Assembly (NCBI GenBank): GCA_913052165.1
Contig: CAJXEC010000017.1
Coordinates: 1-32,335 of the forward strand
From: an uncultured Rhodospirillaceae bacterium
GTDB lineage: Bacteria; Pseudomonadota; Alphaproteobacteria; MPNO01; UBA2964
DNA: 32,335 nt
Direction: 5' to 3'
Positions within the stretch are counted from its first letter, which is position 1. Each line of letters opens with the position of its first letter. The notes below the pieces were generated by a model. That model made no database searches, had not been told where the DNA came from, and saw only the letters and a program-made list of their open reading frames with translations. This document shows, one piece after another, positions 21,665 to 31,039 of the stretch. The position numbers and the translations under genes are program-made.

Positions 21665-22519
21665 TCAGCTCATAACTAATGCAGCGTTAATAGTTTTTCT
21701 GAGGTCGTTTGTTATCTGTGGTTCGATATTAAACCAAGCTTTGAAGCCGGGGCGTGCTTGCTGAAAAAGCATTTCAAGACCACTTATGATCGGGTTACCC
21801 CGAGCTTTAGCTCGTTTTAACAATGTCGTCATCAGAGGTGCATACACTATGTCATTCACCACTGCTGATTTCGGAAGATGATCTAAATCAAGATCTAATG
21901 GAGGCTGTCCTTGCATCCCACAGCTAGTTGTATTTACCAGCAATGAAACATCAGTGAGAGCTTTATTGCGATCGCTCCATGGCCAAAAATTGCAGCTTGG
22001 GCCAAATTGTAGAGCCAAATTCTCAGCCCGACTATCGGTTCGATTAGTTATTCTAATTTCGTCAGCACCCCAATTTCTTAATGCATGTAGAACTGCCTTG
22101 GACGCACCACCGGAACCAATTACTACAACGGTTTTACCAGATATATTCCACCCTTTTGGGGTCTTACTTTCGATAGCCGCTCTAAATCCAAAACTATCGG
22201 TATTGTATCCAAACGTTTTGCCGTTAGGTTGGAAAACAATTGTATTAACAGCTTCTATTTCTAGAGCTGTTTCGTCGACTTTATCTAAGACAGATAGACA
22301 TGCTTCCTTATGTGGTAAAGTTAGGTTTAAACCAGCCATACCCAAGCTACAACATGCATCTATTGCGCTTTTTAAATCGTTGGGAGAAATCGCGAGCGGG
22401 ATGTAGGAACCGCGCCTGTTGTATTGTTTTATCCAAAAGTTGTGAATAAGGGGAGATAGAGAGTGCGATACGGGCCATCCCAGAATTCCTGCTATTTTAT
22501 AGTCGTTCTTATCGGTCAC
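21665..22519 (-). CDS. aroE: Shikimate dehydrogenase
   Basis: AGILGWPVSHSLSPLIHNFW, GLNLTLPHKEAC, AVNTIVFQPNGKTFGYNTDSFGF, VVIGSGGASKAVLHAL, SGLEMLFQQARPGFKAWF. Confidence 0.97.
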   Translation of the reverse strand: MTDKNDYKIAGILGWPVSHSLSPLIHNFWIKQYNRRGSYIPLAISPNDLKSAIDACCSLGMAGLNLTLPHKEACLSVLDKVDETALEIEAVNTIVFQPNGKTFGYNTDSFGFRAAIESKTPKGWNISGKTVVVIGSGGASKAVLHALRNWGADEIRITNRTDSRAENLALQFGPSCNFWPWSDRNKALTDVSLLVNTTSCGMQGQPPLDLDLDHLPKSAVVNDIVYAPLMTTLLKRAKARGNPIISGLEMLFQQARPGFKAWFNIEPQITNDLRKTINAALVMS

Positions 22520-23118
22520 AAAGTCATCAAGCCGCGCGTCCTAAGATACTGTAACAGAGGTATTAATGGTAATCCCAGAACAGTAAAGAAATCTCCCTCT
22601 ATTCTATTCAAGAGTTGAATGCCATAACCTTCTACTTTATAACCCCCCGGGCCATTATATAGTTCCTCTTTAGATTTAATCAGATACTGCTCTAAAAACT
22701 GATCACTGAAATCTCTAAAATGCATTAACGCCTTGTTCGTTTGGTGCCAGACCCTTTGTCCACCCTCAGCCACGCACACCGAGCTTATCAAACAATGTTG
22801 ACTATTGCGAAGGGTTAGAATTTGCTCTTTTGCTTTGTTCTCGGTCCTAGGTTTGCTCAAAATAGAGCCATTAAACTCTAGAACTTGATCTCCTCCAATC
22901 ACAATGGATTCCGGATATTTTTCACTTACCTTACAAGCCTTTTGTTCTGCTAGAAATGTCGCGATCTCTTGGGGCTGAGCTCCAGCTGCCGCGAGCGATT
23001 TTTTAATCTCTTCTTCATCGATTTGCGCTGGAAAAGAATCGAAAACTAGTCCGGCACTTTCTAGCAATCTCCTACGCGTAACACTTTCTGAAGCTAAAAT
23101 AAATTTAACGTTTTTCAT
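22516..23118 (-). CDS. maf: Maf family nucleotide pyrophosphatase
   Basis: ILASESVTRRRLLESAGLVFDSFPAQIDEE, VIGGDQVLEFNG, GGYKVEGYGIQLLNRIEGDFFTVLGLPL. Confidence 0.95.
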   Translation of the reverse strand: MKNVKFILASESVTRRRLLESAGLVFDSFPAQIDEEEIKKSLAAAGAQPQEIATFLAEQKACKVSEKYPESIVIGGDQVLEFNGSILSKPRTENKAKEQILTLRNSQHCLISSVCVAEGGQRVWHQTNKALMHFRDFSDQFLEQYLIKSKEELYNGPGGYKVEGYGIQLLNRIEGDFFTVLGLPLIPLLQYLRTRGLMTL

Positions 23119-23620
23119 AACAATTATCTACTCTGTCTAACTTGAGCAGCGGACAACTGAAACCCAAGGCCTTATCCAGTTGCATAGTAAAAATTTGGCA
23201 TTCGCGAACGGTTTGCATAAGACTTCAGATAGAATTCTAACCTATCTATTAACATTACAAATTGCAGATCTTTTTATAATACTGGATAAGTCGAAATTTT
23301 TCAAAGGATCCCGAATTACTTCGGCTTAATTAAATTTACTTCCTTAAACTTTCCAGATGTGCATAAAAGACAAATTCATGGGGATAAAAATTTATCACCA
23401 GAATTGACGGACTGTGGAAAAAATTATTCCCGCATTTACTTATTGTTTATATGCTAGAAGCAGATGAAATCATGAGTTTTTTCTTATCGAGAATATCCAC
23501 TAAAAAAAGCTATTCTTATTCTTCGTTGTTAATCCTCAATTTTCACAGCTTCAACAACTAAAACAACATATTATAATATATATTTTTTAATGGACGTCCC
23601 AATTAAAACGAGTTTCACTG
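23119..23620. other. Candidate chromosomal replication origin (oriC) region: DnaA-box-like cluster plus AT-rich tract
   Basis: TTATCCAGT 23172-23180(+) and its exact inverted copy 23281-23289(-); TTATCCCCA 23379-23387(-, 8/9 to TTATCCACA); TTATCACCA 23392-23400(+, 7/9); TTTTCCACA 23413-23421(-, 8/9); TTATCGAGA 23484-23492(+, 7/9); ATATCCACT 23493-23501(+, 7/9); A/T-only 24-mer at 23568-23591; adjacent to hemE with diverging flanking genes. Confidence 0.65.
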
Positions 23621-24679
23621 ATGGATCGACTATCCTCCAGAACAAGGTTTCTAAATTCTATACGTAGAATTCGTGTTGATAGACCACCAATTTGGCTCAT
23701 GAGACAGGCTGGCCGTTATTTGCCAGAATATCGGAAAATTCGCACAGAGGTTAGGGGATTTCTAGATCTTTGCTATAACCCAGATTTAGCTTCAGAAGTG
23801 ACCATTCAGCCAATTCGGAGGTTTCAATTAGACGCCGCAATTATATTTTCTGATATTCTTGTGATTCCTCATGCGGCTGGAAGTAAATTAGTTTTTAAAG
23901 AAAAAGAAGGCCCAAAACTTACGCCATTAAAAAATAAAGATGATATCTCAGCATTAAATTTCAAAGAGATAACAGAACGGTTAACGCCTGTTTATAAAGC
24001 AATAAAAATCACTAGGCAGCGCCTTGGTGAAGGTACAGCAATTATAGGATTTAGTGGCGCACCTTGGACACTTGCTACGTATATGGTTGAGGGTGGAACT
24101 AGCCGGGAGTTTCTCCAAATAAGGCGGTTAGCATCTGAAAATCCGGACCTATTACAGGACCTTTTTAAAAGCTTGGAGTCTTCTATTGCCACGCATTTGA
24201 TCAATCAGATTGAAGCTGGGGCAGACGCGGTTCAAATTTTTGATAGCTGGGCTGGTATTTTAAACACTCCTGATTTTGAATGCTGGTGTTTAGACCCAAT
24301 AATACGAATATGTGAACGGATAAAAAATATTTACCCTCAAACGCCTATTATCGTATTTCCGAGGTTAGCAGGCATAAGATATTTGGATTTTCTCGGGAAC
24401 CCAGCGGTTAACGTAATTAGTATTGATCAAACTGTCCCGTTAAATTGGGCCAGGAAATACCTTTTTCCCAGTTTGGCAATTCAGGGCAATCTTGACCCAA
24501 TGTCATTATTAGTTGGTGGAGAAAGATTAAAATCTGACGTCCACAAAATATTGGAAGCTTTCGGAGATCAGCCAGGGTTTATTTTTAACCTAGGTCATGG
24601 AGTGATAAAAAACACAAACCCAGAGAATGTCGAGGCCTTGTGTGAGGTCATTCGCTCCTGGCCAGGAGATAGTCGATGA
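23621..24679 (+). CDS. hemE: Uroporphyrinogen decarboxylase
   Basis: RPPIWLMRQAGRYLPEYRKIR, IIGFSGAPWTLATYMVEG, QIFDSWAG, GNLDPMSLL, FNLGHGVIKNTNPENVEAL. Confidence 0.98.
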   Translation: MDRLSSRTRFLNSIRRIRVDRPPIWLMRQAGRYLPEYRKIRTEVRGFLDLCYNPDLASEVTIQPIRRFQLDAAIIFSDILVIPHAAGSKLVFKEKEGPKLTPLKNKDDISALNFKEITERLTPVYKAIKITRQRLGEGTAIIGFSGAPWTLATYMVEGGTSREFLQIRRLASENPDLLQDLFKSLESSIATHLINQIEAGADAVQIFDSWAGILNTPDFECWCLDPIIRICERIKNIYPQTPIIVFPRLAGIRYLDFLGNPAVNVISIDQTVPLNWARKYLFPSLAIQGNLDPMSLLVGGERLKSDVHKILEAFGDQPGFIFNLGHGVIKNTNPENVEALCEVIRSWPGDSR

Positions 24680-31023: not shown

Positions 31024-31039
31024 CGTTTCACGTGAAACA
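31024..31039. promoter_or_regulatory. parS: parS centromere site (ParB-binding palindrome)
   Basis: CGTTTCACGTGAAACA; the 14-bp core GTTTCACGTGAAAC (31025-31038) is a perfect palindrome and the 16-mer matches TGTTTCACGTGAAACA at 15/16; between mnmE and mnmG. Confidence 0.88.

Follow-up and report, generated by a model that had tools for sequence, protein, structure and literature searches.

The window analysed here, a stretch of 32,335 nucleotides on contig C17 of a 2.48-Mb MAG (141 contigs, 87% complete), carries a 502-bp gap between the divergent genes maf and hemE (Table 1), as described by a sequence-only reading of this DNA that had proposed an origin of replication at this place. The gap has a GC content of 0.32 against a genome value of 0.459, and in both its length and its composition it agrees with the description of hemE-type oriC regions of alphaproteobacteria, in which hemE borders an intergenic gap that is longer than 300 bp and whose AT content exceeds the genome average. 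The same border gene and AT-rich gaps of 380–620 bp with DnaA boxes characterize Caulobacter crescentus Cori and the origins of Rickettsia and Wolbachia (PMC1914354). Genome-wide scans covered 1.83 Mb of the assembly (74%), and a hemE-based search of genome contigs matched only distant named genomes and no close relative.

Table 1. Features of the hemE–maf gap and its surroundings, in coordinates of the window
Feature	Position	Strand	Basis or remark
maf, left flank of gap	22516..23118	-	PF02545, TIGR00172
Candidate oriC, intergenic	23119..23620	.	502 bp, GC 0.32, DnaA-box density
11 DnaA-box-like 9-mers, <=2 mismatches to TTATCCACA	23124..23538	.	box scan, shuffles
Exact 10-bp inverted pair CTTATCCAGT (23171) / ACTGGATAAG (23281), each with 7/9 DnaA box	23171..23290	.	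sequence scan
One-mismatch DnaA boxes, n=3	23358-23366, 23379-23387, 23413-23421	all -	TTATCCACA scan
Alternative module: box ATATCCACT, 8 bp, trios CTA-TTC-TTA-TTC-TTC-GTT-GTT	23493..23530	+	published NAN rule
Tandem DnaA-box-like pair TAATCCTCA-ATTTTCACA	23530..23547	+	alignment; orthologous to the order's TAATCCCC-TTnTCCACA pair
DnaA-trio-like array CTT CAA CAA CTA AAA CAA CAT (on +)	23549..23569	-, read 3'-to-5'	alignment; function inferred
A/T-only tract, 24 nt, candidate DNA unwinding element	23568..23591	.	scan; position order-wide
hemE, right flank of gap	23621..24679	+	TIGR01464, 400 bits
parS-like site CGTTTCACGTGAAACA (15/16)	31024..31039	.	between mnmE and mnmG, 7.4 kb from gap

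DnaA-box-like sequences are concentrated in this gap to an exceptional degree. The earlier estimate of at least seven such 9-mers is exceeded by the 11 found at two or fewer mismatches, and the 10-bp inverted pair it pointed out is indeed exact; the 8/9 matches it listed are also present, although they number three rather than two, all on the minus strand. The gap contains no exact copy of TTATCCACA, and the variant box TGATNCACA is no more frequent than chance would have it. Dinucleotide shuffles of the gap yielded on average 0.18 boxes with one mismatch and 2.06 with at most two, against 3 and 11 observed, and none of 400 shuffles reached either number. A genome scan for box density, which the sequence-only reading had suggested as a check, placed the gap first among 36,034 overlapping 300-bp windows, so that within the 1.83 of 2.48 Mb scanned it has the outstanding box density expected of a hemE-type oriC.

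An AT-rich gap between divergent genes is also where promoters are expected, and the locus might be an ordinary maf/hemE promoter region in which DnaA acts as a transcription regulator or the boxes arose by chance in AT-rich DNA. The sequence-only reading had itself named a similar box density in other AT-rich gaps as evidence that would count against an origin. None of the 510 other 400-bp windows with GC below 0.36 has more than 5 boxes, whereas 10 were counted in the gap, and the objection from similar density therefore fails within the 74% of the assembly covered. With the shuffles falling short of the box count as well, and with the strand skew and the conservation described below, this explanation is very improbable.

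Cumulative GC skew of the window drops until the 23–24 kb bin and then climbs. As gene direction also changes at the gap, skew was computed separately for each strand. At third codon positions, in gene orientation, minus-strand genes to the left of the gap have a skew of +0.165 and plus-strand genes −0.05; to the right, plus-strand genes have +0.195 and minus-strand genes −0.14. Third positions are thus rich in G in the genes presumed to lie on the leading strand but not in those on the lagging strand, and the switch falls between maf and hemE, a result that counts against the promoter explanation. The complete-genome version of this comparison was made in G011, a single-contig complete relative of the same family (4.149 Mb), by means of strand-corrected skew in 31 samples of ~20 kb. 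Skew there stays below zero between 0.4 and 2.70 Mb and above zero from 2.80 Mb onward, round the chromosome, as far as 0.2 Mb, and hemE, at 2.777 Mb, lies inside the switch interval (2.70–2.80 Mb). The skew switch anticipated for this locus was therefore observed locally in the window and genome-wide in the relative G011. The parS-like site of the window has counterparts between mnmE and mnmG in the relatives. Linkage of parABS to the origin is likewise a property of Caulobacter-type origins (PMC4468827), and in Hyphomonas, where marker frequency places the start of replication near hemE, a parAB operon lies ~7 kb from that gene (PMC6650430).

The gap is embedded in a conserved gene order. 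Across the family this reads aroE-maf-PPSR-gap-hemE-hemH-hemJ-rho, followed further along by mnmE-parS-mnmG; the part aroE-maf-(PPSR)-gap-hemE is kept in 9 of 10 family relatives, and wherever their sequence extends far enough, hemH-hemJ-rho, mnmE, parS and mnmG come next. In G001, a member of the same genus (L238), rho directly follows hemE, and the locus contains no hemH, hemJ or maf, the last of which sits on another contig (G001:C1:48702-49247). The gene opposite hemE is COG1806/PPSR in Caulobacter and Rickettsia and COG1253 at other hemE origins (PMC1914354), and the window differs from these origins in having maf there. A survey of the class with one genome per family, in which flank statistics were taken from coordinates only, provided 92 genomes with a usable hemE match; 65 have a divergent PPSR within 1.5 kb of hemE, with a median gap of 472 bp. 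Six, the window's genome included, have maf directly beside hemE and no PPSR, so that this neighbor is recurrent rather than unique. In the five other families (G043, G046, G066, G089 and G121), compared by coordinates alone, maf is divergent and adjoins hemE as it does here, across gaps of 320–498 bp, and no PPSR was detected. A PPSR border is accordingly unnecessary for a hemE-type oriC, its place being taken by COG1253 in some genomes and by maf in these five families. Retention of the gap across the class while its left neighbor changes is a further argument against a mere maf/hemE promoter.

The claim that maf is the neighbor opposite hemE was correct, and it gains context from the order, in most genomes of which PPSR adjoins the gap: the absence of PPSR, the ancestral neighbor, is what leaves maf at the border of the gap here. 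The PPSR family regulates pyruvate phosphate dikinase (PPDK) or PEP synthase. No match to PPSR (PF03618) was found in the window's MAG or in the family relatives G003, G005 and G006, and these four genomes also lack a full PPDK match, showing only short ones near 50 bits. G023, from another family, likewise has no full PPDK match. In G011, PPSR is reduced to a 57-residue match, and the PPDK frame (G011:C1:4001639-4003993) contains two in-frame stops, reflecting decay or sequencing errors. The correlation is imperfect, since G002, G013 and G020 have PPSR without a full PPDK match, and several of the MAGs compared are incomplete (G005 and G006 near 70%). The simplest account is that the regulator was lost together with its presumed target. 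The origin would then have stayed in place while a neighboring gene disappeared, probably for metabolic reasons.

Alignment of the gaps of family relatives, and of the 190 bp nearest hemE in members of the order, uncovered a conserved block on the hemE side. Two adjoining 9-mers (TAATCCCC[A/G], then a TTnTCCACA-like one) come first, followed by a short spacer, an array of C[T/A]A triplets resembling CTACTACnACTAC, and an A/T tract; in the Parvibaculaceae MAG L114, the block reads TAATCCTCC-TTATCCACA-GGGTA-CTACTACTACCACTACC. The basal unwinding system (BUS) of Bacillus subtilis is composed of tandem DnaA boxes followed by trios of consensus 3'-GAT-5', with ~10–13 bp from the better box to the trios (PMC8287927), and in its motif order the order-wide module matches this published architecture. 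The window's version, a tandem pair and a single G followed by seven triplets and the A/T tract, likewise shares with the B. subtilis BUS abutting box 9-mers, a short spacer, a one-strand trinucleotide repeat read 3'-to-5' and A/T-rich DNA (PMC8287927). Six of its seven triplets are C[AT][AT], which 0.3% of shuffles attain, and only six sites in 3.66 Mb of strands have such an array. The A/T tract has the 24 nt and the hemE-side position first described for it and is the only tract of at least 18 nt in the window; with 40 A/T-only tracts of at least 20 nt in 1.83 Mb of the MAG, among which it ranks about tenth in length, it is not unique.

The window departs from the B. subtilis BUS in the trios themselves. 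On the strand presumed to be bound by DnaA, those at the orthologous site are mostly 3'-GTT-5' (CAA on the plus strand), without the central adenine, where relatives carry CTA. The published BUS rule asks for a DnaA box with at most two mismatches, followed within 16 bp by at least three NAN trios. No three NAN trios stand in a row at 23549–23569, the position conserved in relatives; the gap's best candidate by this rule lies 39 bp upstream, at 23493–23530, where a box is followed by seven trios, a score reached by 1.7% of shuffles. The statistics of both triplet arrays were computed after the alignment had been seen and hence are supportive rather than independent tests. The downstream array, the upstream one or both may be in use. 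In B. subtilis, DnaA contacts the central trio adenine through Asn187, and an A-to-T change at that base impaired origin function; what DnaA accepts as a trio was left open by the BUS authors (PMC10721633). The aligned residue is Tyr in the window's genome; throughout the order it is either Tyr or Phe. A derivation of the CAA triplets from changes in DnaA was considered and rejected: residues aligned with Asn187, Ile190, Ile193, Arg202 and Glu228 do not track the CTA/CAA difference, with Phe at the Asn187 position in g3, which carries CTA, and Tyr in genomes of either triplet type.

The CAA triplets, the impairment caused by the A-to-T change in B. subtilis, and the lack here of the TAGTAGTAG array possessed by 8 of 10 family relatives, together with the departure of PPSR, could be taken to mean that the gap is a decayed ancestral origin and that initiation now occurs elsewhere in this lineage. 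Decay is hard to reconcile with a box count above that of every relative's gap compared or with a strand-specific skew that still switches at the gap. Moreover, CAA triplets occupy the corresponding position in family f2 and in a Rhodobacteraceae MAG (L128), so CAA alone does not signify decay. The idea of a relic origin thus merits scarcely any credence.

A more speculative reading is that alphaproteobacterial origins employ a dialect of the DnaA-trio, in which the central base may be T (3'-GTT-5') and is read by a DnaA with Tyr or Phe, an idea offered tentatively and judged rather more apt to fail than to hold. Were it correct, the origins of the window, of family f2 and of the Rhodobacteraceae MAG would be natural examples missed by a NAN-based search. 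In 8 of the 10 family relatives (L238-L247), a second array, TAGTAG(TAG), brackets the A/T tract, lying between it and hemE and facing the CTACTAC array from the opposite strand. The open-licence literature yielded no dedicated account of DnaA-trios in alphaproteobacteria, which is weak evidence of their absence from it, and the trio variant appears to be the only novel part of the origin. The comparative set of origins could serve as a testable natural series for the trios acceptable to DnaA.

Some hallmarks of individual origins are missing. Unlike Caulobacter Cori, the gap has neither the full CtrA site (TTAA-N7-TTAA) nor an exact IHF consensus; a one-mismatch IHF-like sequence at 23561, at the A/T tract, is unpersuasive. 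Most other alphaproteobacterial origins show no CtrA sites (PMC4468827). GANTC is absent from the gap as well; in the host genome (1.83 Mb) this motif occurs at 0.55 of its expected frequency, which would fit CcrM-type methylation. The lack of the CtrA site, of GANTC and of an exact DnaA box, and the degenerate trio array, are the points that speak against an origin. Set against them are the box density, the skew flip in the window and the skew switch in G011, the synteny and the conserved module, which support the original proposal and argue that the gap is very probably the chromosomal oriC of this uncultured alphaproteobacterium, located at the position usual for its class. An origin would thereby be assigned in an alphaproteobacterial order that has no cultures.

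If initiation takes place at this oriC, DnaA would bind the scattered weak boxes and load onto the tandem pair, from which a filament of the DnaA-trio type would grow toward hemE on the minus strand across the triplet array and open the A/T tract. Helicases would then load, and forks would depart both ways, toward maf on one side and hemE on the other, with ParB at parS segregating the origin region. A further cluster of several A/T-only tracts of 23–28 nt occurs within ~120 bp on another contig (L091:14163-14280, G000:C62). The dnaA gene itself lies away from the origin, ~106 kb from hemE in G011 (G011:C1:2883333), and in the window's genome it is found on a different contig (G000:C29), with a dnaN-like frame after it.
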